Below are positions 17,321 through 61,297 of a DNA stretch of 64,000 nucleotides, in pieces. Where the stretch lies: contig CM073321.1 of NCBI GenBank assembly GCA_037043015.1, positions 37,282,420-37,346,419 on the forward strand, written 5' to 3'. A program made the translations under genes and the position numbers. Within the stretch, counting starts at the first letter, position 1, and each line of letters opens with the position of its first letter. The DNA is from Bryum argenteum (taxonomy: Eukaryota; Streptophyta; Bryopsida; Bryales; Bryaceae). The notes beneath the pieces are model-generated. The model had not been told where the DNA came from. It saw only the letters and a program-made list of their open reading frames with translations, and searched no databases.

Positions 17321-17474
17321 CTTTTTGGAAAAAAAAAACAAAATTTCCCCCCTTACAAACGGAAAGACTTCTTTCCTCCCCAAGATAAGGAGTCTGTGGA
17401 TGAAAATTAAAAGAATTTCCAACCTACAGCCACTCCGCACCCTGAAAAGGAAGGAAAGAAGTGAGGAGAGTGGA

Positions 17475-17965: not shown

Positions 17966-18176
17966 ACGGTCCTGGGCCGCCCATTACAATCGAATGGTAA
18001 CCACCTACACTCACAAAACAATTTCAACGGCTAAGATGCGATCTCCAATACGATCTGATGGTTTAAAAAATTTACTACTGTCATAGTAATTCCGATTTAT
18101 CCTCCAAACGGACGTCCGAACGGTCCTGGACGAACGGACGTCCGTCCGACCAAAAAAACTCAAAAGACGTCCGGAT

Positions 18177-18187
18177 TGACATCCCTG
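18177..18187 (-). repeat. right terminal inverted repeat, element 1
   Basis: TGACATCCCTG is the exact reverse complement of the left terminus at 1283-1293. Confidence 0.93.
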
Positions 18188-42000: not shown

Positions 42001-42175
42001 CGTCGACGTTTCATCTCAAAGTACGGATGCCATTTTCACAGCATGGAAATCTAGAACAAGGCAACCTAGGGGGGGCAACGGAATGGTGCAAGATTTGACT
42101 ATTTCAATACCTGAGATTCAAATCAATATCATAAAGGCCTCTCTGGGAGAACTTGCCACATCTACAGAAGAGTAG
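39071..42175 (+). pseudogene. DUF7869-like protein, putative transposon-associated nuclease
   Basis: Start chosen at ATG 39071 (MDTSSAKEESVV), directly after a possible acceptor CTGCAG at 39061-39069. An N-terminal unknown region is followed by a zinc-knuckle-like FARCSKCDEF (about 40110-40140). Next come CIIHDKMDHSK-type sequence (IMHDKMDHSKTASP, about 40300), PLAVTGILAHGHVDQRYAHF, then LNVQMDNAVSNNKNRFVFSF (about 40905) and FMLVGHTHDDIDALFGRW (about 41015). A long C-terminal part ends at TAG 42175. The last motifs are diagnostic, from memory, for the DUF7869 family, thought to be a DDE-like transposon protein. An in-frame TGA at 40106-40108 (RA*DNF, CGA likely) interrupts it. The 40,590-40,830 stretch does not fit the family and may be an unspliced intron or insertion. 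Confidence 0.75.
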
Positions 42176-43004: not shown

Positions 43005-43012
43005 CTTGTGTC
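43005..43012. repeat. 8-bp target-site duplication of hAT element 2, left copy
   Basis: CTTGTGTC precedes the terminal CAGGG and is repeated exactly at 61290-61297. Confidence 0.94.
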
Positions 43013-43032
43013 CAGGGTTGTCTTATTAGACA
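43013..43032 (+). repeat. left terminal inverted repeat, element 2
   Basis: CAGGGTTGTCTTATTAGACA; 18 of 20 bases match the reverse complement of 61270-61289 (differences at positions 3 and 7). Confidence 0.93.
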
Positions 43033-43194
43033 TTGTCGGACGTCAGAGAGACACGACATGTCAGACAGATATTGAGCCTCAGAATGTCTAATAGAATCTA
43101 CAGAATCTTTTTTTACAGAAAATTTACCCTTGATTTACCCTGTCCACTTTGAATCCTACGTGGCTGCCACGTGGCTTGTACAACTCAGCAATAT

Positions 43195-43420
43195 GGTGCG
43201 CGATTGCGCCACGTAGGACTGGACCGGCGGTCGCCTCGTTTGGACCGGCGGTCGCCTCGTTTGGACCGGCGGTCGCCTGAGCTACCGACGTTCGCCCCTG
43301 GGCTACCGACGTTCGCCCATGAGCTACCGGCGTTTGCCCCTGGGCGACGGGCGGTCTTGCTGGACCGGCGGTCGCCTACTGTCGCCCCTGGACCGGTGGT
43401 CGCCTAAAGTCGCCTAACAT
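43195..43420. repeat. GC-rich subterminal cluster, element 2 left end
   Basis: Three perfect copies of GGACCGGCGGTCGCCT followed by GCTACCGACGTTCGCCC variants, 180-410 bp inside the left terminus. The motif vocabulary (CCGGCGGTCGCC, GACGTTCGCCC) recurs throughout element 2 and differs in detail from element 1. Confidence 0.85.
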
Positions 43421-43429
43421 TGGAGGCTT

Positions 43430-43810
43430 CCCCCGAGTAGAATAAGTCATTTTGCTATCCAACTTTACCCAAAATTCTTCCGTTCACGTTATCCAAACAT
43501 AGATGAAGCATAAAGAATTTAAGATGAAACAAATTACAACAATCCACGAACCTCTGAAGAAAAGGCTAACATCAACCATGAGGTTTGAAACTCATGTAAC
43601 AAAAAATGTGGTGACATACATATGTGACTAGTGTAAATAGCGAACATAACCATAAGAGTTGCAAAAATCTATTAAAACTGGAACAATATGTCAAAAAGTA
43701 GATTGTATATATTGCAAGTATAATTTGTGAATTACATGGCTAAATGAGCTCTCAATGACGTGAGATGGTCATCCATAGGAGTCTATGAATTGCAAGAAGA
43801 AATACTGATA
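43430..43810. other. spacer, no feature seen
   Basis: AT-rich sequence between the left subterminal cluster and the 3' end of the kinase-like gene. Confidence 0.5.
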
Positions 43811-45354
43811 TTATAAACTAATTACTGTCCTTTCTAAATATAGACTCTGGTGGAAGCATATGATATGGTTTCCCATCAAGCGGTTCACCACCTCCCCACA
43901 AGTCATTCTCTTCTCCGATTCATGTCTGGTCAGTGATAACACTTTCGATAGGAATTATTCTCGCACCGTTGAATTCGGGAATAATTCTTTGTCAAATTTG
44001 TTTTGCGCACCAATCAGCTGAATGAGCTTGCCAACCGCATACGAATCTGATGCTACTGTGGTTGGATGTCGAAGTTCCTGGACGTTCAAATTTATATCAG
44101 AACTTTCTGGTCCATAAGTATAGAACATCTCGGGTGCCACCCACCATCGATGTGCCATATCGTCATCTTTTTTCTTCTCCGTCTGGTATCCGTAACGTGA
44201 AGGCTGTTGTTCTACTATACGAGATGCCATCCTCGAGTCACACACTCCAATACAAATCTTGCCTTCTCCGAGAGTTGGGAAATGCAATAGTATGTTTGAG
44301 GGGGATAGGTCGTTGTGAAGTACTCCTGTCTTATGCACCAAATTCATGATGTACACTAAACCCCAAGCTAACTTCATCCTATGACGACGGAAAAGGCTAA
44401 TTTGGACAGCCTCCTGTGTAGTGAGACTCAAAATGACGTTTACTTTCGACCAGTGAAGATGTTTGTCGCCGACCTTCTCATCCAACTTCAGCATTTCGTG
44501 TAGTGATCCTCCATTCCACCAATATGAGTAAGCCTCGAATGACCTTGTATGCAACGCCCAAAACTTGATAATATCTGGATGATTCAAAGGACATACAAGA
44601 GCTTCTGCTGCAGTCTCTATTCTTCTCTTCTTAATATTCATATTCTTGGAAAGCTTTGCTGCAAACTCGATATGACCTGGAACGTGGTCTACTCCAACAA
44701 TCCGCACCTTCCGCACCAGTCCATGTCGCGGGCTGATAGAGCTTCTATCGTAGTGTCTTGAGGAATCCACACCATCCCCGACCCTGTGTCTCGTTCAAAT
44801 GTGGCGCGCAAAGCGGTTTTTTCCCATGACTTCCCTCGGCTTTTATTTTTGCTAAGCTTTTGGACATAGAGTTGCCACCAATCCATCTTGCGTTTAAACT
44901 GGTCCTTCTCTTGTGTTAGACGCCTTTGTCCAAATCGCTTCTTCCACAACTCTTTTATATTGAAGATGCATTGTTCAATTGTATTCTCCATCCGCAACTA
45001 GTACTGCGAATGATAATCCACATGTTGGAATTCTTCCGATTCCGCCATGGCCTTCAAAATTGCCGTCTTTAATTTCTTCTTCAGTCTCGCTTTACCCGTG
45101 CTAACATTCTTCAAGTAGTTGTGCTCTAGGAATTGAGCCTCCGTTTTCTCATACCAATCCAAACATGCTTTTTCCACAAACCTAGTATAATCTGATGTTG
45201 GGAATCCGGGAGCTACTTCTCTTTGGTGTCTCCTCTTCCTCCTATGGCCTCCGCTTCCACTAGGTTGTTGCATACCAAGGTCTGCTGCAAATGCTTCGGG
45301 GGCATCAAGATCCCATGTTCGCTCTCCCTCATGGTGCTTTCTGGATTTACTCAT
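43811..45354 (-). pseudogene. protein kinase-like gene, element 2, interrupted
   Basis: Start chosen at ATG 45354 (MSKSRKHHEGERTW). A basic Gly/Arg/His stretch and helical region precede the kinase-like domain. Visible motifs: SPRHGLVRKVRI at the glycine loop, IEFAAKLSK (candidate ATP-binding Lys), YSYWWNGGSLHEML, VLHNDLSPSNILLHFP (HND for HRD), IGVCDSRMAS where DFG should be, and WWVAPEMFY (APE present). The change of DFG to CDS removes the Gly. Metal binding by the Asp could remain, but activity is doubtful. Lesions: TAG at 44998-45000, a frame change near 44760, and TAA at 43955-43957 with open frame continuing to 43811. Both stops would be Gln before a C to T change. Same family as 15875-17320. 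Confidence 0.75.
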
Positions 45355-45530
45355 CGTCGAACTTCTTGAAAAAACCGGCAAAAAATCTCCCCCCTGCTAT
45401 CAATGTGCACCAAACCCCCAAAAACTCCTCAGACGACCCGGCAGTGCGCATAAAGACGAGCGAAGACACAGGGCGGAGGAGAGTTCGGTAGCGGTTTGGG
45501 AAAAAGTAATATGAAACTCGCGGGTTCGGG

Positions 45531-45539
45531 TTTATATAT
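45531..45539 (-). promoter_or_regulatory. TATA box of kinase-like gene, element 2
   Basis: On the minus strand ATATATAAA lies about 180 bp upstream of the ATG and directly next to the GC-rich cluster. Confidence 0.6.
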
Positions 45540-45544
45540 CCTTG

Positions 45545-45975
45545 GAGACCGGCGGTCACCCCACAGTCGCCCACCGCCCGCCGCCCACGCCCCATTGTCG
45601 CGACAATTGGGTGGCGATCGCTTCCACATCCATTGCCGCATCATCCCGCACCGTGGTCGCCCCACGCCCCCATTGTCATGAACAACAGACCGGGCGTCGT
45701 CGCCCACGCCCCATTGTCATGAGCACCTGCAGACCGTGGTCGCCCCACCTCCCCCCCGCCGCATCACCGCACCGGCGGTCGCTCACCTCTTTGTCGCCGC
45801 GACACCGTGACCTGCGTCGCCTCACCTCCATTGTCGCGCGCGACCTGTGACTGCTGATCGTCGCCTCACCTCTCATTGTCGCGACACCAGACTCGCGGTC
45901 GCGCCCTCACTGAACCGCCGGTCGCCCACGCAACGTCGTAGCACTATCTGGACCGCCGGTTGCCTTGATTTTGAA
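45545..45975. repeat. GC-rich cluster in a divergent promoter region
   Basis: Motifs such as GACCGCCGGT, GACCGGCGGTC, CGTCGCC and CATTGTCGCGAC lie between the divergent kinase-like and WCHI-RING genes, with a TATA box on each side. This suggests a shared regulatory region. Confidence 0.7.
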
Positions 45976-45997
45976 GTCGCCCCGACGCGAGGTTGCC

Positions 45998-46006
45998 TTA
46001 TATATT
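45998..46006 (+). promoter_or_regulatory. TATA box of WCHI-RING gene, element 2
   Basis: TTATATATT about 130 bp upstream of the ATG at 46132, immediately after the GC-rich cluster. Confidence 0.6.
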
Positions 46007-46131
46007 CCCCCATCGTGCAAAAACTTCTTATTTGGGTTTACTGGCCTGGCGCGCTGTCTTACATCCATTAAATTGGCTGCTTGCTCGTTCCGGGTAAGTA
46101 ATAACTATTCGCCATTTTGGCTATTTCATCT

Positions 46132-48453
46132 ATGGCTACTCTCGGGCAACTTAGGAAGGCAGAGAACGACAAAAAGAGGAAGAGGAGGGGCGCTCCACAA
46201 CAGAAAAGATTACACGTGCTCCAAAATCCGAATAAGCTTGCCTTCAGAGGTTGGGAAGATGAACCAGATATGTGGACGATGGCCACTTATGAATGGTGTC
46301 ACATTGATAAGAAATTCCCTCTGTCTCGTCACCATTTTCATTGGCGCACCAACAAGGCAAATCTTAAGTTTTGCAATTGCCCAAACTTCAAACAACGAAG
46401 AATTGAGGTTTACCAAGTCTTGTATGGCACGCCATGTGTGGAGCGCAACGAGGTTCCATTGTTTCTTGCTCGTTGAGTATACGCTGAGGTTGCTCTTGGT
46501 AAACGAGTGGATTGGACAACTGTCAAAGAGGAGAAGCATGTAACACGACCTTTAACAAGTGACATTCCGACAGACATTCTAAGATTCCCTGACGCTTCTA
46601 ATGGTGGCATAGGAGTGACGAGGTCTATTACCAAGGCTATGGAAGAGGCTTCCTATCATAAAGCTACATCGGAAGAGGACGATGACTCACATGGTTCTCG
46701 GCCTCGTAAGGCGGTGCGTCAAGTACAACAACCTCTTCCTCCCTCCAGTGTTGTGATTAATGCGGATCATCGTTGTAATTTACCTGGCCGCGTTCCTCAA
46801 ACAAGTGGCTCTCGCCCTCCAATAGCAAGTAATCATTCACCCGTAGTAGAGCCCCATGGTACTAGCATCTTACCATTGGAAGAACTTGACACATCTTCTG
46901 ATCTCAAAGCTCTTCTGAAGAGCAAAGACGATGTCATAGCAAGATTGCAAGCAGATCTCGAAAAAACACGAGCAATGTATGAAGAGAAGGTGAAAGAAGG
47001 GGACCAGCTTTCCGTGGAATATGCACGCATGCGCAAGAAGATGCAAGAACTATCTCACGCACGTAACATTCGTGGAGATATAGAGAAATCAGACATGGCG
47101 GATGTTGATAGAGTTGTCTTCAACCTTACAGAAGACTTGGCATTTTGAGAAATGTCACCGTAACGGCCTAAATTGCGCCGTCTTGTGAAAGCTCAGCCAT
47201 GTGTTGTTAATATGTGTCGCTTCGAACGAGAAGAAGATGTACGAAGTGATTCTCAAGATTCTTTATCTTTACCTTTGTTTCCCCCTATTCGTAATCCCCA
47301 TTTCATGTCCTCTGATGGATACAACTCCTTACTAAAAGAAAAGCAACAACTGTAAGCTCGTTTGGAGCAGTTGTCAGCCACTTACTACCATTGGAAGGTG
47401 GCATGTATACTTTCGGTGGACAGAGGGAGACAAGTTGCAGCGGAGCTGGAGAAGATCGATAAGAATTTTACTAGTGGAGCTGGTCGAAAAACGTTCGGTA
47501 TGACCTCGTGGCCGAGTGTGGATACATTGTTTGATAATCTTCCTATGATGGACATCAAGATGCAAGATGACAGTTCTACAGAGGTTGTAGATTGGAGCAA
47601 GGCTGGGTGGAATTTCAAACACCACATGTCGGCACATGTTGATGTAGCATCCAGGACATTATTGTGGCCCAACCCTCCGCAGTTTGTATTGGATCACTCT
47701 ATGTGTCCCATATGCCTAAATCCATTTGGACCTAAGGGTGGATGGGCTTTAGGCTCCTGTGTCCATATGTATCATCCGCAGTGTCTCTTAGTTCATTGTT
47801 TGACTCAAAGTCGTTGTGCTATATGCAAAGCGCCTTTTCACGAGCGGTTTTACGAGATGTTCAATCTAAGAACTTATATGCCGCCTTCTTGGGAACACAA
47901 TGCTGAGACTACTGACGAGGTTCGATTCTGGGCTAAAGACCTTATTTGGAGTTGGCGTAGAGGTGAACATGATCTCGAGAAGAGTACTCCTAGCTCCCAT
48001 TTGAATTGGGAGACTGACCCAAACGAGATTCTAAGAGTTGCACCAATACTTGCCGGACAAAGTCCACAGCATGAGGGTAATCGGATGTTCTTCTTCCAAT
48101 GCCTTGGAGGCTATTTTGATGTGAGCTCTAATACATTCAAGTGGGGGCCCCACCCAATGGGACATTGATGGAATCAATATGGGAAGAGAGTAACCGACGG
48201 TGAAGGTCATGCCTCCATGGAAGATTTGGGAGAGTATCAATATGCTGAGTCTACTTGGGGGCCACGATACCAGTCTCAAGCTCTAGACTATTTACTGGAT
48301 GTACATAGTCCCCTCACAAGAAGGACTTTGCAGGACATGAAAGACTCTAGAGTCTTAGATCTGATCTTAAATGCAGATGGTCCATTCAATCGAACTCGTG
48401 CAAAGCGTAAACTTCTTGTTGGAGAATGCTCCAACCCTCAGCCTAGTGAATGA
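46132..48453 (+). pseudogene. WCHI module fused to coiled coil and RING-H2 finger, in-frame stops only
   Basis: ATG 46132 (MATLGQLRKAENDKKRKRRG). One reading frame runs throughout. The WCHI module is at 46240-46520: WTMATYEWCHIDKKFPLSRH, FCNCPNFKQRRIEVY, NEVPLFLAR, VYAEVALGKRVDW. A Ser/Pro-rich linker follows, then a coiled coil (KDDVIARLQADLEKTRAMYE, about 46926), a second helical stretch (ARLEQLSATYYHWK), and RING-H2 at 47701-47830: CPIC, CVHMYHPQC, CAIC. The C-terminal domain starts ERFYEMFNLRTYMPP, like the element 1 gene (TRIYEMMGIRDLMPP). Stops are TGA 46474, TGA 47146, TAA 47161, TAA 47353 and TGA 48166, with no frameshift. All fit CGA or CAA origin; TAA 47353 reads QL*ARLEQL. Likely role if intact: ubiquitin ligase with the WCHI module as targeting part (inference). 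Confidence 0.8.
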
Positions 48454-48880
48454 TAATTACGATATTGTGAATCCATACACTCCAGCATAGCGTATGGTTT
48501 TAGCTATATAGGACTACGTTTTATTATAGTATTATCGAGTGGCAGCTTTTTGCAACAATGTATCTCATTTCCTATTGTACTACTTTTTGCATCGATTAAA
48601 TCAATGGTATGTACTTGGTTCGCTCGTTTGCTTGTGGTCTATCGATTGTACTTTGTCAGATATTATTGTATCTTACATCTTCATAGTCCATATAACCCGC
48701 CCAACCCCTTGTACCAATGCACAAACATGTACTTACGCATGATGAAAGGTAAAAACAAACTTCCATATATAAAGTGTATGCGAAAAAGTACATAGAACAC
48801 GCACACTTTCCCTACACCTAATTAACGTAAATCAAATATCGTTTGGTGAATGTTGGGGGTGTAAGTCCATCGTCTCTACG
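48454..48880. other. spacer between convergent genes, no feature seen
   Basis: AT-rich 3'-flanking DNA of the WCHI-RING gene (plus) and the WCHI gene (minus). Confidence 0.55.
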
Positions 48881-50188
48881 TTAAGAATCTTCAACTTTGT
48901 CCTTGCCATTTGAAAAATGTGATTGTTGCGGTTCCAAATCAACGTTGATTGCGTTTATGTTGATGTCAAGTTTTGTGTAATTTTTACGATGAGCCCACTC
49001 TGCCCATGCGTCCTCGAATCGAGCATCCTCCTCAGCTACACGTAGTTGCTTCGCAAGTTTTACATTCTGGTCTTCACTCCATTTCACCAGCCTCTTTAAT
49101 TTGTCAACTTCCTCTGGAGTCTTGCCATACTTACCCGCAAATGCCAAATCACGAATGCGTAGCATCTCTTTATCTACCTCTAGAGCAATAGATTCTTCAA
49201 TATCCGTCAATTGATTCCTCCTCTCAGCTAGGACCCATTCCAAGTAAGTATGTTTCGCTGTTCAGAACTCTACGTAGTCTTCTATGGAAAGGTTGTTTGA
49301 ATGTTTCTTCTCCAAAAACTTCTCACGAGCATCTTTTCGTAGCACAAGTATGGTCTCCATGTAAGCTATGCTGTCTAGAACGTTTTCCAAAGTCTCCCGA
49401 CAGTCCTCTTGTACATCGTATGGTTCAGTGGCAGAAAGGGCTCTTTCTTTGAGGGCTTCCAATTCCTTTCTATGTTGCAGTACTTCCTCCAATTGCATGC
49501 ATGTTCGTATACTGAAATTGTACAACATGATAAAATTATCCATGAATTTGGATAATCTTCCACCCACTGTTCGGAGTGGATTTGTCTCAAAGGAAATCCC
49601 CTCCGCCCAATTTATTGGAGGACCAGTTCGTTCACTGAGTTCACTGAGCTCGTATTCGTGTGTGTGTTCATCCTCTGAGGATTTGGAAGAAGACCCTGCT
49701 GTGTAAAATTCTGCGTTGGCCTTAGGACTCATAGGTGTAGTTCCAATTCCATCTCCTTCAATAGTCTTTGATGTCTCTCCAACCTCTATTGGTTCGGTCT
49801 TCTCTTGTATAGACAAACTTGGATGCGTCGACCAATCCACCTCCTTCCCGAGAATCATTTCCGCATATGCCATTCTTGCCAAAAAGTAGGGAACCTCATA
49901 TTTAAAATTATGGTTGTTACCGTATATCAAATGCCAAGCATATATGCATCTTCCTTTAAATAGGTCATGATGGCACTCTCGGAGGTTTGCTTCATTTTTG
50001 TGCCGATGAATATTGTGCCGATGTAGAGGAAAGAGCTTGTTGATGTGGCACCACTCCACATATCTCACACATATGGCAAAAGATCACGGCTCTGTCTCTT
50101 CCTCCCATCCTCTAAACGCTAATATCTTCGGATTCTTCAAGATGTCTATGCGCTTCTTCTCAATCCGACCTCGGTCATGTGGCACCAT
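48881..50188 (-). pseudogene. WCHI module protein with C-terminal helices, minus strand, in-frame stops only
   Basis: ATG 50188 (MVPHDRGRIEKKRIDILKNP) is preferred because a TATA-like run (TTTATATAG) lies just upstream at about 50216-50225. An in-frame upstream start at 50266 is possible. The WCHI module reads AFRGWEEETEP*SFAICVRY, VEWCHINKLFPLHRHNIH, NLRECHHDLFKGRC, YEVPYFLARMAYAEMILGKE then VDW. An acidic/Ser linker follows, then long predicted coiled coil to the end (LAERRNQLTDIEESIALEVD). Stops TGA at 50084 and TGA at 49262 are both in frame with open sequence on each side and fit CGA. No RING is present. Function unknown. Confidence 0.72.
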
Positions 50189-50334
50189 GGATGTACCCGC
50201 TACAACTGGAAGTGCCTCTATATAAAAAAATCCGTAGAAACGCAAAGTCCCTCTACGAGCAAGCAAGCAGCAACACTAAAGTCAATACTAGTCAATGCGC
50301 GAAAAGAAGGGACTCGCAAAGAGTGAAAATGGAC

Positions 50335-50675
50335 TGCCGGTCGCGTTCTTAAGCACAGTAATAAGGCGACCGGCGGTCTACAGAATCTGCACCGCCGGTC
50401 GCTCGCCGGTCCAGCTATCGCCCTATCTGTACCGCCGATTGCCCCAGCGACCGACGTTCGCCCATGAGCTATACCGGCGGTCGCCCTGTGACCGACGTTC
50501 GCTCATCGACTGGACCGCCGATCGCCCCAGCGACCGACGTTCGCCCATGAGCTACCGACGTTCGCCCATGAGCTATACCGGCGGTCGCTTGTGACCGACG
50601 TTCGCTCATCGGCTGGACCGCCAATCGCCCCAGCGACCGATGTTCGCCCATTGGCTGAATCGGCGGTCGCCCTAT
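50335..50675. repeat. GC-rich cluster upstream of minus-strand WCHI gene
   Basis: Alternating GGCGACCGGCGG, GACCGACGTTCGCCCA and ATGAGCTATACCGGCGGTCG units, some nearly identical over about 60 bp (50,460-50,520 against 50,530-50,600). Confidence 0.8.
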
Positions 50676-50679
50676 TTGC

Positions 50680-52060
50680 AATCGGTAAGTCCCCTGTTTA
50701 TGTTGAATGCGAGGGCATGAGGTTACGTAGCAGCTCATACGATGATCAGATGAGGATGAATATTGGATGGGGGAGGGGTAAAAGAGCCCTATAGTTTATA
50801 ATGTATTAGTTTAAAAATTAAGAAGGTACGCATAGGGTAGGAATTTCGGATCGTGGGTCCCATAATTCTCATTTTATGATCATTCAATTCATAAGAAATG
50901 GACAAGAGAGGTCTAAATGGATGATAATGAATGGGAGGAAGGATGGGGTGAGAGTTCCTCGTCCTCTTTGTAGGCATCCATGGTATATATTATTTTGTAT
51001 GATGTATATTTTAACAAGTCATATTGTGCCTAACCATTTATAATAAGTGATAAAAAGTAAATTCATTTATAGAGCATCAGCCTCTTCAATGCATGAAACA
51101 ATTTAATGCATCTAACGATTTAATAGCTACAATCTTAGAATGTAATCCAAGGTAGTCAATTTCTAGCATCTAGATAAGATACCATTTTCGCACCAAAACT
51201 GCACCTCATATTCTAACATCACATTCAAGAACAATTTCTAGTTTCTTTTTATATCAGTGGAGCCCTTAATAAATTATAAGATCTCCATATACAATATCCG
51301 AGTATATGTATGCTAATAGATTATCCTTGCAATGAGTTTATTGCCTCATAACATTATAAAATTGGTTAAATTGAGAGGGGGGAGGATTTTGAAAATTTTG
51401 GCAAATCAAATAATAACGCCTTGAAATACAATTAAGTGTAAGGCTTAGTGCATATAGCCTAGTAAGCACTGAGAGAAATAGTTGCTTACCAAATTAAAAG
51501 GTGATATATCATGACATATTATATGTTTGGAGAAAAAATGAGTGACCACCATATGAAGGTAAATATTTGAAGTCAAGAAGACTAATGATTTGCGGACATT
51601 CTAATCAACCCATTACTGAGGGTACTTTTGGAACCAATATTTGATGAGAATTTTATATTGAGAATTTTGAGAATGTTGAAAATTATATTTTAAAATTGTG
51701 TTTAAACTTGTATCGATCTAAATCCATATTACACCACAAGAGTATCCAATGAGCTTAAAATTACATTTTTTATGTATCATGGTCACCGCTCTTGGCAAAA
51801 TGCCCATGACCATGGGAATCATTTTCATTTTGGGAATGAGAAATACGAAGAACCGAGTGGGAATGAGAGGGAATGAGGGGGAATGAGGGGGGATGAGGGG
51901 GATTGAAGGGGGGAATGGGGGAGATGCTTGAAGTGGTTAATTCAAAATTTGAATATTGCATAAAGAGGATCCAAGAATAAGAGCAAGAGCTCTCGGGATG
52001 TTGCCCCTGCAGAGTGTCGGTTGCCCCGAAGCGCTACTCTGAGGCTGGAGAGAAACTCTT
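50680..52060. other. AT-rich spacer with a G-rich repeat
   Basis: No supported gene. At 51,850-51,925 a GGGAATGAGG / GGGGGATGAGG run repeats about seven times on the plus strand and could form a G-quadruplex. Otherwise the sequence is unremarkable. Confidence 0.5.
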
Positions 52061-52064
52061 CTGA

Positions 52065-52200
52065 AGCTGCACCGCCGGTCGCCCCGGAGGTCTGCTGCAG
52101 CTGGACCAGCGGTCGCCCTGGAGCGAGTCTTGCAAGAAACACTAGACCGGCGGTCGCTCTAACGATGTCGCCGTGACACTGCCGGTCGCCCTGCCACAGG
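52065..52200. repeat. GC-rich cluster upstream of WCHI gene
   Basis: Degenerate ACCGCCGGTCGCCCCGG, GACCAGCGGTCGCC and ACTGCCGGTCGCC copies, about 200 bp before the start codon at 52393. Confidence 0.75.
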
Positions 52201-52392
52201 AGGTTAAATACAATCGTTATTGGCCGAAGTCGTCACTTTTCAGTCCACGTGCCGTGTTGTTGCGCATTGTCTGGTGTCGACTCAAAGTTGCCACTTGCTT
52301 GCTCGATTGGTCCGTCAACGTGGACTGCACTATTTTTGGTGTTTTGTATCTAACATCACATCATAGCCGCATTTCCGTGATCGGAGGTAACA

Positions 52393-53892
52393 ATGACTAC
52401 AATTGCGGAACGTAAAATAGTACTCAGGTAGAGACGCAAGAAGAGAGGAAAAACACAGAAGAGGAATCACCGTATTCTCCAAGATGCCACTCTACGCGCT
52501 TTTCCGGAGTGGGAGACCGAAGAGGGTGTGTGGAGTCAGACAACAGTGAAGAATTACATCGCTTGGAGCCACATCAGCAAGTTGTTTCCACACTTTCGAC
52601 ATGAGACGCACTTGAAATTAAATGCTGCAAATCTGCACTATTCTAAGCATGACGAATTTGTACAACGATGTATTGAAGTGTGGAGGTTCCTTTATAAAGG
52701 CAAGAATGTCACCAAGAACGAGGTTTCGTATTATATTGCTCAAATGGTGTATGCAGAGGTAATATTGGAGAAAGTGGTGGATTGGAGCTCATTGAAAAAA
52801 TCGTCTCAAATCTTCCTTCCAACCAAGCAAGACATTCCAAGAGCTCCATTGACAGAAAACCCACGAGAAGGACTTACGGCAGCAAGGCATCGGAAAGATG
52901 GGGATGCCGATGATGTGTATATTTGGGAAAAGCCTAATTCTGATGAAGAAGAGGTTCACGAGAGGGAGCATCATACTCCTCTTTTAGAAGGTTCTATTGG
53001 TGACGTAGAACACTTTCATGTGGGTGAAACAAGCATGCGGGATTCGGATGTGATTAATGCACCTCTGAAGCACGTCGAGGACCCACGAACAGAAAGAGAA
53101 GCCGATGTCATTGAACACATGGAGGTTGAAGGAATGTTTGGTGCTTGTACTTTGGGTCCACCTGAAGCTATAGTTGGGCCCACTATGAGCGCCCCTCCTC
53201 AAACAAATGTTAGCGTAGAGGAGGGGACTCAAGAATATCCAATGGAAACGACTAAACGGCCACAAAGAGAAGGAAATCAAGACGTAGAGCTGGAGAAGGA
53301 AGGTCAAGTAGTCTTCAAAGAGAAACACCCAAAGGAAGTCGAAGATTCGTGGATAAAGGAGATGAAGAGGGCTTATGAGTGTTATGAATATTTGTTTCAT
53401 TCTTTGTCATCCAAACGGACAAAGTGTGTTGAACTCCAATATGACATTTAGGAAATCAAGGATGCAAAAAATAAGATCCAAGACGTGGCGACGAATGTTT
53501 TTCTAGCTCTAGATGCATCGGATCAGGTCGATTATGAGAAAGAGCTCATAAAGGAGGAATTTTTTTTTGAAGATGTGCGAAGGAGATATAATCACGTCGA
53601 CGAATGGTTTGTGGTCAATGATTGGGGTCGCGAAAAGGATATTATGGTTGAAGGAGCCAAGGACTAAGGTCATTGTGAAAAGAAGCTAAAGGAATTCATT
53701 CCGGCATGCGATGCCTTGAGAGCTGAGATTGAAAGGGTGAACCTAGCATCAAGAAGATTGAAGGAGAACAATGAAAAGCTAGTACTTAATAGAATAGATG
53801 GAACCGTGGATATTGCAGAAGAGGGTCAAAGTTCACAGCGCAATGAAACAACTGAGGAGTTGGTCAAAAAGCTACTTGCAATTCAAAAATAA
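52393..53892 (+). pseudogene. WCHI module protein with coiled-coil tail, in-frame stops only
   Basis: ATG 52393 (MTTIAERKIVLR). The WCHI module reads VKNYIAWSHISKLFPHFRHE, LNAANLHYSKHDEFVQRCIE, NEVSYYIAQMVYAEVILEKV, VDW. An acidic and Pro-rich linker and a C-terminal helical region (KKLKEFIPACDALRAEIERV) follow, ending at 53892. Stops TAG 52429, TAG 53449 and TAA 53665 interrupt one continuous frame. The first aligns with a CAG Gln in the neighbouring paralogue (ARDQNRKRKG). The other two read DI*EIKDAKN and KD*GHCEKK. The gene is a tandem relative of 55704-56405, and the two share upstream DNA (GCGCATTGTCTGGTGTCGAC). Confidence 0.75.
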
Positions 53893-54544
53893 AATAAAAT
53901 AAATGGATATAACCAACACACGAAAGCCTTTCTAAAATTTGATTCCGCTTACTCTAATCTCCTTCAATCTTCTTGATGTGTAAGGCTGGATGTTATACAG
54001 TGTACCTTTTTGATTATATGATATGTTTGTACTAGTAAGATACCCGTTGAACGATGTTATGTTTAATATTTGTATATATGCCCACGGTGTTAGTTTTATC
54101 ATCGTCTTTATTCTATTTATTTTTTTATTTTCTATTTTACATGCATGATTTAGAAATATGTAAAAAAAGGTTCGTAGAATGGTATGTAGGTTGGTAATTA
54201 TTTAAGTTGGTAGGTTTGTATGTTGGTAGGTTGGTGGATACTTTGGATAGTGGTATTTTAAAAAAGTATGTCGTCTATACCATTCCATATGTATATATAA
54301 TGATATTGAATTTTGGAAAGCTTTGATTAGCCTTAATCCACAATTAAGTAATGATAAATAATTTGTAAAAATTTGGAATCGTAACTAAGTTGTTGAAGTT
54401 ACGTATCAATATATGGTGGGATTTACTTGCAAGTATCTAGAGTCGATGGATATTTTGACAAACTCCCCAAAACATCTAAATGTAATGATTCAGTATAATC
54501 GTACATGATTTCAAATATGCAGATTAAGATTTGTAGCAAAAGGG
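53893..54544. other. AT-rich spacer with short GGTTGGTAG repeats
   Basis: No gene seen. Around 54,180-54,245 a GTAGGTTGGTA motif repeats four to five times. Confidence 0.5.
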
Positions 54545-55460
54545 AGGGAAGCAGATATTCGCGCCCATCATGTAGACGGCCAATCGCCTCTCAACGACGT
54601 TCGCCCATCATCTGAATCTGCGGTCGCCCCAGTGAGCGACGTTCGCCCGTCCGCTGTATCGGCGGTCGCGCAATCTGGAGGGTTGAATCAAATTAACACC
54701 AGGTATTTCCTTCCATATTGCTTATATATTTACATATGCCCCCTTACTTCAAACCCTTCCGATTCAAATATCCCCATATAAACTCAAGCACATAGTTCGC
54801 ATTCTCCTATGGTTTTATGAACACTTCCATTACATTCATAAGGCCCTTATTACCTAATTCAAGTATTAGTATCACCTCCTATACCCTTTTAATCTCTTTT
54901 CCCATATCATTCGAAGTTGTAGTAAGTGCACCTAAATTATGACATATGGATGCGATTTCCCTATGGTTTTTTTTATGAGTCCATCATTTTCATAGGGTCA
55001 TTATTAGGAAGTCCAAGTATTAAAATCACATTATTGCCCCATTTATCTATTTTATCTTTTTTTTTTATAGTTTTGATGGTTCCAAATACTTGCTACCAAA
55101 AGCTATTATATAAATTCGTTACTCCTTTGATAATTTTGACAAATACACTGAGAGGAAGATTAGTCCTTGCCCATGAGCTGGACCGCCGGTCGCACAGTGA
55201 CCTACGTTCGCCCACCAGCTGGAACGGCGGTCGCCCCAGTGACCGACGTTCGCCCGTCCGCTGCATCGGCGGTCGCGCGATCTAGAGTTTGAGCCCCCAG
55301 ACATACGTCACGCAGTGTCGTTTGGAGGTCGCGCCCTCTGACCGACGGTCGCCCACCAGGTGGATCGGCGGTAGCCCCAGCGACCGACGTTCGCCTATCC
55401 GCTGGATCGGCGGTAGCCCCAGCACCAGGGTTACAAATACGCGCGCGGACACCGGCAGTC
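54545..55460. repeat. tandemly duplicated GC-rich plus AT-rich unit upstream of WCHI gene
   Basis: The cluster 54,575-54,680 is repeated at 55,180-55,290 (shared GACGTTCGCCCGTCCGCTG and ATCGGCGGTCGCGC). A third related block lies at 55,320-55,430. The AT-rich interval also repeats: 54,805-54,880 against 54,950-55,035 (CCTATGGTTTT, AAGTATTA, ATCAC). No gene is supported. Confidence 0.7.
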
Positions 55461-55703
55461 GCCATTTTTCACCTCCACGTGTCGGGCCTTGCGCATTGTC
55501 TGGTGTCGACCTCTGGTTGCCGCGTGCTTATTCGAGCGCTAGAGCGTGCGGTGATTGGCACACACGTGCGACACGTTTACATTTTACACATACGTGCTGT
55601 TGGATTTTCAAATTTTTCAAATTCTGTGTTAGTCCACGGAATAGATATAACTTTGTTGTGAGTTATTTTAAAAATTTCTTCGTTGGTTAGCATTTGGGTG
55701 TCG

Positions 55704-56405
55704 ATAACGCCTAGCCAGGAGCGAAAGATAGCGAGAGACCAGAACCGCAAGAGGAAAGGAAAGAAGCAAAGAAGATTTCACAAGATTCTTATAGATCCCA
55801 CGCAACATGCTTTTCCGAGGTGGACGACAGTAGAGGGACCGTGGACCCTTAAGACTTGCAAGTGGTTCATTGCTTGGTGCCACATCGGCCATTTGTTTCC
55901 ACACTATCGTCACGAGTTTCATTGCCGCTTGAATTGCGCAAATTTGCACTATTGCAATCACGATGAATTTGTGCAACGATGCATTGAAGTGTGGAAGTTC
56001 CTCTACGCCGGTGTGCATGTGGTGAGCAATGAGGTTTTGTACAACATAGCACAAATGGTGTACGCGGAGATAATTTTGCAGAGGGAGGTGGATTGGAGGA
56101 CGTTAAAAAAATACCCTCAAACAATTAAGCCAACAGAACCGCATATTCCGCGAGCTCCTTATCTAGCGGCCAACCCACGAGAAGGTCTTACAACGCCTAG
56201 GGGTTACAAAGGAGGAATCCTTGATGAGGACATAGTTTGGTCAGATTCGGAAGACGAAAGGACCGAAAGGCGCGAAGTGGATGGGGAGCCAAACCAAACC
56301 ATGGAGGAAGATGAAGCACATTTGGATGAAGGGGGGCCAAGCCAAGTTTGTACAGAAGGGGGGCCAAGCCAACTTTACAATGAAGGGGGCCCAAGCGAAG
56401 AATGA
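55704..56405 (+). pseudogene. WCHI module protein, open frame but start codon apparently lost
   Basis: An unbroken frame with basic N-terminus (ERKIARDQNRKRKGKKQRRF). The WCHI module reads CKWFIAWCHIGHLFPHYRHE, LNCANLHYCNHDEFVQRCIE, NEVLYNIAQMVYAEIILQRE, VDWR. The protein ends early with three GGPSQ-type repeats (EGGPSQVCTEGGPSQLYNEG). No ATG precedes the module. The codon aligned with the paralogue's ATG (52393) is ATA at 55704-55706, a single G to A change. This is the cleanest WCHI copy and shows the conserved Cys/His set best (C, C-H, H, H, C, C-H). It lacks the C-terminal helices of its sister, so it may be 3'-truncated. Confidence 0.7.
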
Positions 56406-56965
56406 CTGGTAGATAGTTAATCACGTTTTTTTAGCAGTTGTAGAAAAGTAGTATACTCAATATCAAACACTAAGTGCAATTGCCATTTTGTATGTAAAAA
56501 CGTTGAATGTGAATATGAAGTTTTTGATTTTCTTCAATTTAAATATTCTTGGTGAATCAAATCTCACTATTGCATTTGGTATAAGCATAAGGGAAAAACC
56601 TTCAATGTCCAAGGTACCTTGATTGATGTATGGCAATTTTTACCATTCTTAATTATTTAGGGAATGTGGATTGAGCAATATTGATCCCTTTAATTTTTGG
56701 ATTTGGAGCAAGAGAAGTTAAAACTCTATTTTCTAATATGAGTCCTTATTGTTCTCTCTCTTCCCTTCCCATGTCCCCTTTATTTGTTTTTTTTAAAAAA
56801 AAAAAGGAAAGCACAATTGCCAATCAAACATTTTTGAGCCGCATGGTCTCCGGGACTGTAGTTCAGAGTCGTTGAATTCCGTGGACCATGGATATTGACC
56901 ATTGCCCTCTACAAATTTGTGGTTGGGGAGTAAAGTGCTTTTTGTCGAAAAAATCCGTCATCGCT
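56406..56965. other. AT-rich spacer, no feature seen
   Basis: Between the WCHI gene and the GC-rich cluster of the transposase. No gene is supported. Confidence 0.55.
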
Positions 56966-56969
56966 AGGG

Positions 56970-57110
56970 CAACCGGCGGTCCAGCTAGCGCGATGAAGTC
57001 AAGGCCAGGGCGACCGGCGGTTCATATGGCGCGACAGCATTGTTGTTAGGGCGACCGCCGATCAGGCTGTGGCGACCTAGCCGAACCGCCGGTTGCCTTC
57101 TATGCACATT
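56970..57110. repeat. GC-rich cluster upstream of transposase, element 2
   Basis: Four copies of AGGGCGACCGGCGGT-type motif, spaced about 35-50 bp, end 27 bp before the TATA box. Confidence 0.75.
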
Positions 57111-57136
57111 CGCCCCCGACTTACAGAAGTATGGAG

Positions 57137-57144
57137 TATATAAG
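57137..57144 (+). promoter_or_regulatory. TATA box of element 2 transposase
   Basis: TATATAAG, 178 bp upstream of the ATG at 57315. Same layout and sequence as element 1 (1749-1756). Confidence 0.65.
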
Positions 57145-57314
57145 GAGTCGTTCACGGGCTTGAAGCCACTTTCCTTTGTGCTTTGCCCGTAGTCTTGGGT
57201 CTCCCCATGAGAAGCGCCCTGCTCGGTCTATATGTGCAAAGAGTAACTTGAGCCCTTGTAGTGTGCGTTGTCGTCACCAGTTTCATTGCACCGGAGGGGG
57301 TGCGATTCCGGAAC

Positions 57315-60300
57315 ATGGAGCATTCTTCCCAATTCAACGGGGTAGCAGATAATAGAAGAGAAACTCGCAAATGGGACGATTGGCTACAAGTATCTAGGGA
57401 ACGGAACGACAAGCCAAATACTCGCGTGTGCTTATTCTGTGGGAAAAGCACAGTCTTTGTAAGGCAACGAGCATTTGCTCATTTCGGATATCCTCAGAAT
57501 TCCCCATTACCCCGGTGTACGAGGTTACCCCGTGGAGTTCTCGAGCTATTCCGTGACTGTGGAGGGATGGTTCCAAAGAACAACATTCCTTATGCGGATG
57601 TTGTTCCTGACTCACGAGTGTATGCCGACATACCGTATGTGGCAAGGGAAACTATAGAGAACATAGATTCCCCTCGCATCAAGTCTGTACAAGTGCCATC
57701 CCCTAACCTAAGGTCAAATCAGGTGCCATCCTCTAACAAGGGGAGTCATGGCAGCAATGGACAAAGGATCTCTACACTCTCTGGCGGACGGGGACATGGG
57801 CAAAGGAGTATGGAGGATAGTTTTGATCTTGCCACCAGACAAAATTTGGATGCAAAGTGGGCTTCATTGTTCTATGAGGCAAACATTGCATTCAATGTCG
57901 TACGACATCTAGCATTCATAAGTGCCGTTCAAGAGACAGCAAAGGCCGGTATTGGTGGATATCAACCACCCTCGTATCATGCTATTAGGACTGCGATGCT
58001 CGTTGCGAAGAAGGCAGTTGTGGAAAGGTCGGTTGAAGATCAAACAAAACTATCTATCGAGAAGTACGAAGGAACAATATGCTCAGATGGGTGGTCTATC
58101 GTCACAATTAGACCACTCATTAACATGATGCTCGTTTGCCCAGTGGGAGAGGTGTTTCTGGGATCAGTGGATACTACAGGGAAGAAAAAGGACATCGCTT
58201 ATGTGGCAAATGAAATGACGAAGTACATAGAGGAGCTTGGACCAAAAAACATCGTGCAGATATGCACAGACAATGCAAGCTCCATGTTAGGTGCTGTCAA
58301 GAAGTTGCAGATAGACTATCCTCACTTATATGGACAAGGTTGTGCGGCACATATTCTAGACCTCCTTCTAGAAGATTGGGGGATAGAGGCATGGGTTGAA
58401 CATTTGGAGGAGCAAGCCAAGAGAGTGTGCACATTTATTAAAGGGTCGCACGTCCCACTTGCTCTATTCAAGAAGTACTTGCCGAAGCTGCAGCTCAAGG
58501 TACCACCTCAAACTCGATTTGCAACAAACTACTTGATGATAGAGCGGTTGTTAAAGCTACAACAACCTCTGAACAACATGGTGATCGATGCGGAGTGGCA
58601 TGTGTTTGTCCAAACATTGTTCAACAGGCAAAACAGGCACCAGTTACAGACAAAGGCAAGGAATGTGCGGAATAGCATTAGGAGCGATGAGTTCTGGGAG
58701 AATTGTACGAAGTTTGTGAAAGTAGTTGAACCAATACTCATAGCTCTTCGGGAGTTTGACGGGGAAGTACCAGCCATGCCTAGGGCATATGTGATCATGT
58801 CGGACCTTAAAGAACACGTGTTCTCTTTGCGTGAACCTCCATTCGAACTATTCCCCGACATTGCTACAAAATACGAGGATGCATTTCAAAAACAATGGGA
58901 AATGATGCTCACAGACCTCCACTATGCACCAGCTTTGTTGAACCCTTATTTGACAAATATGGGAGCAATTGAAAACAACGGAGAAGCAAAAAGAGCTTTA
59001 AACCGGGTCATAAGGAAGCTTAGCGCCCCAATGGGAGTAGTCTATGAAGAAGTGGTGCGGGAACTCATACAATATGAGGAGAGGACGGGTCCATTTAACA
59101 CCAATTCAGAGGCCCCTGATCCGGCTCAGTGTGACTTGTGACCACATCAATGGTGGCATCAAGTTGGGGGGAATGCCTTGCCAAAAATTGCGAAGAGGAT
59201 TTTGGCATTGACATGTTCAGCTTCATCATGTGAGAGGAATTGGAGCATGTACTCTTTCGTGCACAACAAAGTGAGGAATCGTTTGTCAACTTCCAAAGCA
59301 TAGGACCTTGTGTACATCTATGCGAACGCCAAACTCGAGCGCCACAAACGTACCAAATCGCCGAGAACGTGGTATGGAAATTATTTAGAAGAAGAGGACT
59401 CTGAAGAAGAAGAGTATATACCGGACAATGAACGGGATGATGGTGTATTCATGGATAACCCGAAGGCAGATGACGACAATTATGTCAATGACGGTAGCGA
59501 ACACGATGACCTAGAGAATTGGAACGACAACGAAGGAAACATGACTATTCATGTCAAGGATATGTTTGAGTTCGATGACGACCAGGATGTTCCACAACTC
59601 CCTCGCTAGTTTGCGGTGTTCGCCAATGACACAGAAGGAGAAGGAGTGGCAAATTTACAGCTCCAAGAGAGTACCTGCCTCGCGAAACAAGACTTGGTAA
59701 ACCAGATGGATGAAGAAAACATTGGTAACAATAAAGGCAGCCCTCACTCTAACAACGACGATAAACTTGAGAGTGTGAAGTGCACGGTTACCACGGCATG
59801 AGTTGAAATGGACCAAATTAAAGTGGAACTGACAATGTATCCAATTCAGGTTGCATAGAAGTGGGGTCACCTAGAGTTTCAACCATTTGATCAAGGAATT
59901 CAACTCTTAACGGAGATGACTCCGATGTACCTCTACAACAATTGTTCCCAAGGGTTACCCAACCTAAAGGGCCTCATACAACTCGTATGGTATTGCCGAA
60001 GACGGAGGTCAAGATAGAACCAACAAGTCCGACATGCACTCGAGCATTGGCAGTGTTACGAGACGTCGGGCCATCTTCACAACCTCGCAATCGTATTACA
60101 CAAGGCCAGAAGCGTTTGAGGAAGGCACACAACCGACGATGTCGGAAAGCAGCACGCATACATGAAGAAGTCCATGCGGGGATTGCTTCATCCAATAATC
60201 CGAATACACGTACAATGCGACATCTATCACTGAACGCAAACGGGATCACTAATGCTTTACGGCCCTTGAAGCGCCTCGTTACAGTGAACAAGAAAACAAC

Positions 60301-60472
60301 TACGAACACGAAATTGCGCAATTTGGCGAGTGAGGTTGAGTGTAAAGTACGCAATAAGAGAGAGGATGAAGACGAGGATGGCAACCAAAGCACAGATGAC
60401 TCTCTAGGTGAAACCGATCCAAACGCAGATGAAGTATCAAGCGACGATACGTATACATTGAAGGATACCTAA
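57315..60472 (+). pseudogene. hAT transposase (BED finger, DUF659, hAT dimerisation), in-frame stops
   Basis: ATG 57315 (MEHSSQFNGVADNRRETRKW). BED finger CLFCGKSTVFVRQRAFAHFG at about 57430. DUF659 has DGWSIVTIRPLINMMLVCPV (first catalytic Asp, about 58087) and ICTDNASSMLGAVKKLQ (second, about 58263). Next is the motif GCAAHILDLLLEDWG. The hAT dimerisation domain lies at 59142-59330 (HQWWHQVGGN, SASSCERNWSMYSFVH, DLVYIYANAKL), followed by an acidic tail and a basic region (RKAHNRRCRKAARIHEEVHA). Stops TGA 59139, TAG 59301, TAG 59607 and TGA 59799 are in frame. A frame change lies between 59,800 and 59,940. TGA 59139 falls exactly between the core and the dimerisation domain, so any product would be truncated. 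It is clearly homologous to 1957-4709 but diverged. Confidence 0.88.
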
Positions 60473-60795
60473 AGACGTGTTATTGGAATTCTGTTATTTT
60501 GGATTGGAAGCACAAAGTTTGTTGTTAGTACTCAGTACAATACTACAATGTACTGCAAGTAGGGCAACTATTAGCTTACAATATTTTGGTATCCTAGTAT
60601 GTTTCGGAGTATAATACACAAAGTTCGGTATACATAGTAGTTACATCATATATATATATATATATACTATGATTATAGACATGGACAAATTTGTACTATG
60701 AAATGCACTATTGATCTTGTTTTGGATAAAAAGGTATTCATAAATTGCATTGGTGCTCATTTTGTACCAATATGAAATTATCTTGCTTGTTTTGT
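60473..60795. other. 3' flank of transposase, no gene
   Basis: AT-rich, with a short (TA)n run near 60,648-60,667. Confidence 0.55.
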
Positions 60796-60799
60796 ATTC

Positions 60800-61075
60800 A
60801 ACCAACCCAAGGCGACCATCGATCGCCACATGCGCGCTACCCCCAGGGCGACTGCCGATCGCTATAAGCTACCGATGATCACCCAAGGCGATCGTCGGTA
60901 ACTCACTGACAACTGGCGGTCGCCTAGAAGCGGTTGCCAGGGCGACCGCCGGTCTCCCTATTGGACCCCCGGTCGCCTAAACGCGGCAGCCAGAGCGATC
61001 GGCGATCGCCGCATGTCACCGACGTTTGCCCCTATGCTACCGTCGGTCGCCTAGCGAGGTCGCCCACCCGTGGTT
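60800..61075. repeat. GC-rich subterminal cluster, element 2 right end
   Basis: About ten degenerate copies of GGCGACCGCCGGTC, GGCGATCGTCGGT and ACCGACGTTTGCCCC, 210-490 bp inside the right terminus, mirroring 43195-43420. Confidence 0.8.
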
Positions 61076-61269
61076 GCTCAATGTGACGTGTATTTTTGTT
61101 TTCCACGTCATTATCGACTCTACGCCACGTAGGAAAATAGCTTTATACCTCAATGTCAATCTCAACAAGTTTTTTACTATGCAATTTTTGGAACGGTCGA
61201 CATTCTCGTCGATTGGACGTCTAACAGAAATGTCCAATATGACAAATCAGTCAGAAATTCTGAAAAGTG

Positions 61270-61289
61270 TGTCTAATAAGACCACCTTG
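61270..61289 (-). repeat. right terminal inverted repeat, element 2
   Basis: TGTCTAATAAGACCACCTTG; 18 of 20 bases match the left end in inverted orientation. Confidence 0.93.
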
Positions 61290-61297
61290 CTTGTGTC
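61290..61297. repeat. 8-bp target-site duplication of element 2, right copy
   Basis: CTTGTGTC is identical to 43005-43012. Confidence 0.94.

Follow-up and report, generated by a model that had tools for sequence, protein, structure and literature searches.

Boundaries and ends of the element

Are the five genes that accompany the transposase in a giant hAT element of the moss Bryum argenteum a stable part of that element, or were they captured by chance? The question comes from an earlier note on the window, which is the whole stretch of 64,000 nucleotides analyzed here (contig CM073321.1, positions 37,282,420 to 37,346,419). The element, family A in what follows, occupies 18,277 bp (window 43013-61289), and its inverted ends, CAGGGTTGTCTTATTAGACA at 43013 and CAAGGTGGTCTTATTAGACA (reverse complement) at 61289, are identical at 18 of 20 positions. 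A perfect 8-bp duplication brackets them, confirming in the sequence the 18.3-kb hAT that the note had described.

43005-43012, no strand: left target-site duplication, 8 bp (CTTGTGTC)
43013-43032, plus strand: left terminal inverted repeat, family A
61270-61289, minus strand: right terminal inverted repeat, family A
61290-61297, no strand: right target-site duplication, 8 bp (CTTGTGTC)

A scan of the window for such ends, allowing up to four mismatches, returned these two and no others. Terminal inverted repeats with a CAGGG-like start are characteristic of the hAT superfamily, and the short repeats found here begin in this way. The note had also called the ends intact, which they are; the genes of the window copy are not, as its transposase, WCHI_52 and WCHI-RING are broken.

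Genes carried by family A

Six genes lie between the ends and the transposase is one of them, as the note had read; "WCHI" is a label given by that earlier sequence reading.

43955-45396, minus strand: gene for a protein kinase with AAK and HND; CDSR here where other copies have CDWG
46105-48453, plus strand: WCHI - coiled coil - RING-H2 gene (WCHI-RING), interrupted in the window copy
48881-50275, minus strand: WCHI_49 gene; 5' limit from the open frame, constraint not seen
52432-54050, plus strand: WCHI_52 gene; right limit approximate, by analogy with the C7 copy
55662-56405, plus strand: WCHI_55 gene; N-terminus basic, C-terminus acidic
57252-60472, plus strand: hAT transposase gene with DUF659; broken in the window copy by a stop at 59141 and, further downstream, by a change of frame

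The window copy is decayed and longer open frames are found in other copies. In the window copy the transposase frame ends after 629 codons, whereas it is open for 1073 codons in a copy on contig C7; the corresponding open frames of WCHI_52 are 339 and 548 codons, and WCHI-RING is a single protein in other records (P0005, 777 aa; P0007, 824 aa). The C7 copy was used for its genes only, because its left and right ends do not pair by a matching duplication (attctcgg versus ctccacat).

The transposase of the C7 copy carries both DUF659 (136.4 bits) and the hAT C-terminal dimerization domain Dimer_Tnp_hAT (28.1; cut-off 21.4), as expected of a hAT transposase. The kinase of family A scored 34.2 with Pkinase (cut-off 31.7) and matched one kinase-type chain in the PDB (3n9x, E 4e-4). 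Counting open frames in nine copies, AAK was present in seven and HND in six, five of which also had CDWG; together with the domain match, the catalytic Lys, the HxD Asp and the DxG Asp identify a eukaryotic protein kinase. The RING-H2 domain is present with its Cys/His ligands: the ligand spacing was found in six of nine family A copies with a pattern that is too strict for family B (see below), and the zf-RING_2 scores of family A, 25.9 in the window copy and 24.8 in the C7 copy, fall just below the cut-off of 27.3. A Pfam scan of the WCHI proteins gave zero matches above cut-off, a WCHI profile matched solved structures weakly and in the coiled-coil part only (E 0.07 or worse), and a single scan of viral contigs with WCHI_52 for a viral source found no relative.

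Dispersed copies, target-site duplications and empty sites

Searching the whole genome for the 20-bp end pattern with up to two mismatches yielded 1,023 matches (509 + 514), and the reversed control none (0 + 0). Duplications were examined in 12 end pairs, ten of family A and two of family B, one pair with a cut-off right end being excluded; ten of the 12 had perfect, mutually different 8-bp duplications, one had a duplication with one mismatch and one had none. Module genes in unchanged order were present in seven of the ten fetched family A pairs, and two of the ten held all six genes and were flanked by perfect 8-bp duplications other than that of the window copy. The other three were ends only, with none of the genes and with other filler between the ends. 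The paired-end search that the note had proposed thus returned further copies with different duplications and the full gene set, and its second proposal, a search for a site lacking the element, was equally productive. The joined flanks of the window element gave 104 candidate places, and at all 40 that were scored the match crossed the junction (34 of them matching over all 300 bases), indicating that empty target repeats exist. As is typical of hAT elements, insertion was precise and into an intact site, the empty sites being paralogous. Insertion was of the cut-and-paste type with an 8-bp duplication, and the copies are many and dispersed. Accidental pairing of unrelated ends was ruled out by the perfect duplication, the empty sites and the many copies.

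Among the matches listed, 52 of 70 transposase places had WCHI_52 upstream on the same strand, 2-25 kb away. On contig C1 alone this was the case for 41 of the 54 listed places, against a random mean of 1.2 and a maximum of 5 in 200 trials. C1 is repeat-rich and holds these 54 of the 70 listed places, as might be expected if segmental duplication, and not transposition of the entire unit, had multiplied a cluster of genes lying near hAT ends; however, the different duplications at different places, the precise empty sites and the presence of family copies on several contigs, C7 and C2 among them, render this exceedingly improbable. Stops were found inside 53 of the 74 transposase matches listed. 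Sampled copies were 4-10% apart, so that any recent movement is conjectural.

A second, diverged family with the same kinds of genes

The note had further stated that another element of the window, element 1, carries the same set. This element, with the terminal inverted repeat CAGGGATGTC, represents a second family (family B).

1283-18187, plus strand: family B element, diverged second family; duplication CTTCTATG on both sides
1939-4709, plus strand: family B hAT transposase, interrupted; Dimer_Tnp_hAT above cut-off (36.9)
5323-8290, minus strand: family B WCHI - acidic/coiled coil - RING-H2 gene, interrupted; zf-RING_2 above cut-off (35.7)
13820-15174, plus strand: family B second WCHI gene, C-terminal part low-complexity
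15875-17239, minus strand: family B kinase gene; AAK, HND and CDWG motifs all present, Pkinase score 21.0, below cut-off

The claim stood for the kinds of genes and not for the stand-alone WCHI genes, of which one was found here versus three in family A. Family B is also present on C2, in a copy with its own perfect duplication. Protein identity between the two families is 35-39% for the transposase, 28-31% for the RING part, 31-34% for WCHI and 29-55% for pieces of the kinase. That so distantly related an element carries helpers of the same kinds suggests that they act on behalf of the jumping gene. A WCHI protein of a different record, P0004, was tried as a third close family and rejected, as among 97 scored places of the genome the best-scoring one was 46% identical and the highest identity, 56%, extended over a shorter stretch. 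Telomere-type repeats of the plant kind (AAACCCT), in keeping with a plant genome, were seen both within element B and in other parts of the window.

Repeat islands at the ends and near gene starts

The family A element of the window contains 56 matches to a repeat motif, in eight clusters of 3-12.

43207-43414, no strand: left subterminal repeat island, RACCGRCGKTCGCC-type, ~21-bp unit
45544-45964, no strand: internal island between kinase and WCHI-RING, which are divergently oriented
50365-50671, no strand: internal island upstream of WCHI_49
52070-52158, no strand: internal island upstream of WCHI_52
54592-54647, no strand: internal island, more than 500 bp from any identified gene start
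55181-55463, no strand: internal island upstream of WCHI_55
56968-57097, no strand: internal island upstream of the transposase
60811-61051, no strand: right subterminal repeat island

Family-specific repeats lie within 500 bp upstream of all ten genes identified in the two families, and five of the six internal islands of family A and two of the three of family B are close to gene starts. With a motif derived from the element itself and gene starts set in this analysis, this closeness differed from random placement anywhere (P 0.003 for A, 0.019 for B) and was not significant against random non-coding positions (P 0.13 and 0.10). An origin of the internal islands from one nested element per gene was rejected, since the element contains no internal relic of a terminal repeat at up to four mismatches, a limit that leaves room for relics in a more decayed state.

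Constraint on the helper genes

Most helpers have dN/dS values near those of the transposases (0.27-0.65 versus 0.30-0.46). In family A, dN/dS was 0.46 for the transposase, 0.53 for WCHI_52, 0.46 for WCHI_55, 0.44 for WCHI-RING (approximate, as over the first ~180 codons the C7 copy was read in a shifted frame) and 0.65 for the kinase (over no more than the N-terminal part that is open in C7). In family B, it was 0.30-0.36 for the transposase, 0.36 for RING, 0.35 for WCHI, 0.27 for WCHI2 and 0.33-0.42 for the kinase. WCHI_49, at 1.10 and 1.17, gave no sign of constraint, and neither did two stretches of low complexity in family B genes (0.75 and 0.72). Read in its truncated frames, the window copy gave 1.52 for WCHI_52 and 0.75 for one part of WCHI-RING. 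Removal of CpG contexts raised dN/dS to 0.56 for the transposase, 0.63 for WCHI_52, 1.50 for WCHI_49, and 1.00 and 1.05 for the two low-complexity parts.

These values bear on whether a hAT element took up host genes or pieces of them by chance, as Pack-hATs or by transduplication, and amplified them as passengers. Such capture has precedents, as two papers describe Pack-hATs and a hAT of a fungus that took up pieces of histone H3 (PMC8903248, PMC6710886), and the three ends-only copies with other filler and the unconstrained WCHI_49 would fit it. Nevertheless, the same kinds of genes recur in two families whose transposases are so far apart, most module genes resemble the transposase in dN/dS, and the C7 copy has long open frames and not pieces, so that we regard chance capture as very improbable. 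Pack-hATs are non-autonomous and carry host gene fragments and no transposase, whereas family A has a transposase and, in the C7 copy, long module frames. The genes of the second family, the dN/dS values and the repeats upstream of genes together indicate, with a probability that we put at about 0.88, that family A consists of giant hAT elements of autonomous type, in which the five genes other than the transposase form a conserved accessory module. The note's view of a stable cargo is supported by the recurrence of the set in a diverged family and the constraint on most genes; we prefer "conserved accessory module" to "cargo" because the constraint on most of it resembles that on the transposase.

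A possible role of the module

One or more of the WCHI proteins, with a basic N-terminus, the conserved WCHI domain and an acidic or coiled-coil C-terminus, may bind the repeat islands. TnpA of En/Spm and VANC of VANDAL elements are models for such binding and its effects. By analogy, island-bound WCHI might act as a TnpA- or VANC-like activator or anti-silencer that would switch on all genes of the element together and/or ready its ends for transposition. WCHI-RING could supply ubiquitin ligase activity, and the kinase phosphorylation, at the element or on silencing factors of the host located on it, with proteins of the host or of the element as targets.

It is quite conceivable, at slightly under even odds, that the module serves transposition only, with WCHI proteins as TnpA-like end-binding cofactors and with kinase and RING tuning the activity or turnover of the transposase; the presence of the same repeats at both ends and inside the element, and the retention of kinase and RING motifs in most open-frame copies, point that way. 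This account overlaps with our best explanation, and sequence does not separate the two. More tentatively, family A may represent a hAT lineage with self-contained counter-defence and control, in which the WCHI proteins would form a novel family of DNA-binding proteins, evolving in step with element-specific islands at the ends and at the promoter of each gene, and would recruit the element's own ligase and kinase against silencing. The multi-gene cargo of fungal Starships can be adaptive, and by that example the module might benefit the host and spread thereby. We find this hard to credit, as about a thousand termini, the stops in the listed transposase matches and a cis motif that the module has in common with the element ends fit selfish regulation better.

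Comparison with known systems

With members of the hAT superfamily such as Ac, Tam3 and Tip100 family A shares the 8-bp duplication, short inverted ends of the CAGGG type, subterminal repeats and a transposase with DUF659 and Dimer_Tnp_hAT. Unlike usual hAT elements, the two families measure 16.9-18.3 kb, with six genes in family A and four or more in family B. The VANDAL elements of Arabidopsis, which encode the VANC anti-silencing proteins, likewise combine a transposase with accessory genes, but their transposase is Mutator-type and that of family A is hAT; VANC and WCHI are likened by role only, not by sequence, and an anti-silencing role of WCHI is conjecture. Our literature searches, whose coverage of subscription journals was thin, found no multi-gene plant hAT.

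One paper gives ~5 kb as the typical length of hAT elements and has Gulliver, at 7,144 bp, at the long end of the range that it lists (PMC6710886). It also describes a hAT of Pseudocercospora that is similar in its extra coding sequence, length (~9.5 kb) and high copy number, but differs in that the captured sequence comes from one host gene, is inactivated and forms no conserved module. ToxhAT/ToxTA of wheat fungi, a 14-kb element with cargo formerly called a hAT, differs in its 2-bp TA duplication, its 74-bp inverted repeats, its present assignment to Tc1/mariner and in being single copy and non-autonomous (PMC12506042). CACTA families of Chondrus crispus are enlarged cut-and-paste elements as well (16-20 kb, 4-5 ORFs; PMC6431247); they belong to the En/Spm superfamily and are likened here by size and ORF number, not by gene content.

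Most hAT elements are familiar as transposons with a single gene, and the present families indicate that simple cut-and-paste elements can grow into multi-gene systems in which a kinase, a RING protein and an undescribed protein family are kept under constraint through deep divergence. The motif common to ends and gene starts offers a testable handle on self-control or on escape from silencing, an escape that, if present, would follow a route independent of VANDAL elements. If the counter-defence reading is true, silencing would be stripped from all members at once, and this would allow a hAT of 18 kb to multiply to hundreds of copies.

Element A transposed as a single unit

Inspecting the hAT element at 43013-61289 (element A, 18,277 bp, type copy of family A), we found that the ends and target duplication proposed in an earlier note are correctly placed: 18 of 20 end bases are identical, CTTGTGTC flanks both sides, and the ends are matched at only two places within the window (up to 4 mismatches). 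Across the assembly (258.8 Mb, 25 contigs) the 20-bp end pattern has 1,023 matches with up to 2 mismatches, while its reversed control has none. Ten facing end pairs, a subset of those visible, were chosen by eye from places on contig C1. The duplication test covered 12 pairs, i.e. the fetched pairs without E_14449, whose right end is cut off, the window copy and two copies of family B, a diverged second hAT family. Further copies with other 8-bp duplications were indeed found, as 10 of the 12 pairs carried perfect duplications differing between places; E_38127 had one mismatch and E_21435 no duplication. The predicted empty site was recovered as well: the flanks of element A, joined with one duplication copy, matched uninterrupted across the junction in all 40 places scored of 104 candidates (identity 90-94%; 34 of the 40 spanning all 300 bases; all of these best 40 on C1). 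Element A thus inserted in an older repeat of which empty versions survive, and it transposed as one unit. The window copy is decayed. The sampled copies are 4-10% apart, suggesting that movement may be old.

C1 (44.1 Mb, 17% of the assembly) holds 54 of the 70 best-scoring places of the family A transposase and 58 of the 82 listed family B places. The repeat flanking element A also had 40 of 40 scored matches there, among best-scoring places. C1 looks like a repeat-rich chromosome and is possibly a non-recombining (sex) chromosome. Outside the two elements the window also carries:

22698-23894, minus strand, reverse transcriptase ORF (RVT_1), between elements B and A
25460-26071, minus strand, NLI-interacting-factor-like phosphatase ORF, between elements B and A
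40151-42175, plus strand, two DUF7869 ORFs, one over and one under the cut-off, directly left of element A

The DUF7869 pair probably represents pieces of a single broken gene.

The gene set recurs in other copies

The expectation that further copies carry the same six genes held in part: module genes were present in 7 of the 10 fetched pairs, in the window copy's order and orientation, and absent from three. E_31294 and E_24530 carry all six and are, besides the window copy, the only fetched copies so complete. The others are:

E_14449, transposase truncated, WCHI-RING broken
E_32988, without WCHI_55
E_21435, without most of the transposase
E_38127, without WCHI_55 and most of the transposase
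E_30627, internal deletion removing WCHI-RING, WCHI_49 and the initial portion of the kinase gene
E_18326, E_25349 and E_28060, no module genes (ends-only derivatives)

The ends-only derivatives (6.5-11.8 kb, perfect duplications) have long internal repeats in common and are perhaps a separate non-autonomous lineage. A copy on contig C7 retains open frames, stop to stop, of 1073 (transposase), 789 (WCHI-RING, shifted at its start), 548 (WCHI_52) and 245 (WCHI_55) codons. The window copy is missing about 1.35-1.5 kb at 54648-54718 that is present in several family A copies; in the C7 copy this stretch starts with a further motif island and contains no long ORF.

Genome-wide, WCHI_52 lies upstream on the same strand, 2-25 kb away, at 52 of 70 listed transposase places, and on C1 at 41 of 54, where 200 random trials gave 1.2 on average and never more than 5; these lists hold the best 70 of 1,068 transposase and best 119 of 1,307 WCHI_52 candidates, not the whole family. 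Stops interrupt 53 of the 74 transposase matches listed.

Most module genes are under constraint

In family A, eight other copies were compared with the C7 copy, whose reading frames served as the reference; dN/dS was 0.65 for the kinase, 0.44 for WCHI-RING, 0.53 for WCHI_52 and 0.46 for both WCHI_55 and transposase; without CpG contexts it was 0.63, 0.46, 0.63, 0.55 and 0.56, respectively. WCHI_49, one of the five helper genes, showed no constraint by dN/dS (1.10; 1.50 without CpG). These values, like those for family B below, take in post-insertion decay, so that true constraint is likely stronger. The window copy's own frames as reference gave 1.52 for WCHI_52 and 0.75 for one WCHI-RING part. 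The kinase motifs AAK, HND and CDWG occur in 7, 6 and 5 of nine family A copies, and the spacing of the RING ligands is present in 6 of them.

The claim that the window's other element (element B, 1283-18187; terminal repeat CAGGGATGTC, duplication CTTCTATG) has the same set is right as to the kinds of genes, but one further WCHI gene was found versus three in A. Another family B copy lies on contig C2 from 3727397 (16,862 bp, duplication ATTGCTCT), and the 14-bp left end has 266 genomic matches (up to 1 mismatch) versus 30 for its control. Between the two copies dN/dS was as follows:

dN/dS in family B (all sites; without CpG)
Transposase: 0.30/0.36; 0.37/0.51
RING: 0.36; 0.29
WCHI: 0.35; 0.19
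WCHI2: 0.27; 0.21
Kinase: 0.42/0.33; 0.53/0.35
Two low-complexity parts: 0.75/0.72; 1.00/1.05

The family B kinase has AAK, HND and CDWG. Protein identity between the families is 35-39% (transposase), 28-31% (RING part), 31-34% (WCHI) and 29-55% (kinase pieces). Both share the order WCHI, then coiled-coil or acidic part, then RING on one strand, and these parts make up a single polypeptide in P0005 (777 aa) and P0007 (824 aa), which come from other records. In family A the tails are acidic or coiled-coil, whereas family B's second WCHI gene runs into a low-complexity tail with abundant Q, Y, G and N (14245-15174, plus strand). Plant-type telomere repeats, (AAACCCT)n, occur inside element B (11550-11599), in its C2 copy (L040:422-442) and once more at window 36644-36664.

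A probable accessory module and its possible control

WCHI proteins matched no Pfam family above cut-off. A search of about 5.8 billion proteins, part of which scored only about 8,000 candidates, turned up 13 different relatives; they come from sources marked jgi, lgn and ena, and none of them carries a functional name. The best-scoring match of one WCHI protein from another record, P0004, in this genome is 46%, suggesting that another organism has members of the family too. As far as the consulted parts of these sources go, typical hAT elements are near 5 kb, ranging up to 7.1 kb, and a 9.5-kb one with captured histone sequence is on record (PMC6710886); ToxhAT has been moved to a Tc1/mariner-like class (PMC12506042), and Chondrus CACTA elements reach 16-20 kb with 4-5 ORFs (PMC6431247). 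Our literature search found no multi-gene plant hAT. We consider the helper genes to be an accessory module of the hAT element with a probability of about 0.88, slightly lowered because the full set of six occurs in only two fetched copies besides the window copy and one helper of the five shows no constraint.

The subterminal motif of family A, RACCGRCGKTCGCC, derived from element A itself, has 56 matches in the element (up to 2 mismatches), 8 elsewhere in the window and between 0 and 2 in five mononucleotide-shuffled versions. Those in the element group into eight clusters (islands), one at each end and six internally. Family B has a distinct motif, RACCGATCGSNCGS, with 41 matches and none in 1-1282 or 18188-43012. 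With gene starts set by us, an island lies within 500 bp upstream of every gene, six in A and four in B; for the family B transposase and kinase it is the island of an element end. No identified gene start accompanies one of the internal islands of A (54.6 kb) and one of those of B (10.7 kb). Closeness of internal islands to gene starts was significant against random placement anywhere (P 0.003 for A, 0.019 for B) and not significant against random non-coding placement (P 0.13 and 0.10). The islands resemble the VANC targets of VANDAL elements, described in the available text of PMC5735166 as a family-specific motif tandemly amplified in non-coding parts.

The simplest interpretation is a control loop in which an element-encoded protein would bind the islands and so act on the element ends and all promoters together. 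WCHI proteins are the best candidates for the binder because each element encodes several, which combine a basic N-terminus with tails that are acidic or coiled-coil; alternatively, the transposase itself may bind. A role of the accessory module specifically in anti-silencing is less likely than not. In the control loop, the RING and kinase proteins would modify the transposase or host silencing proteins.
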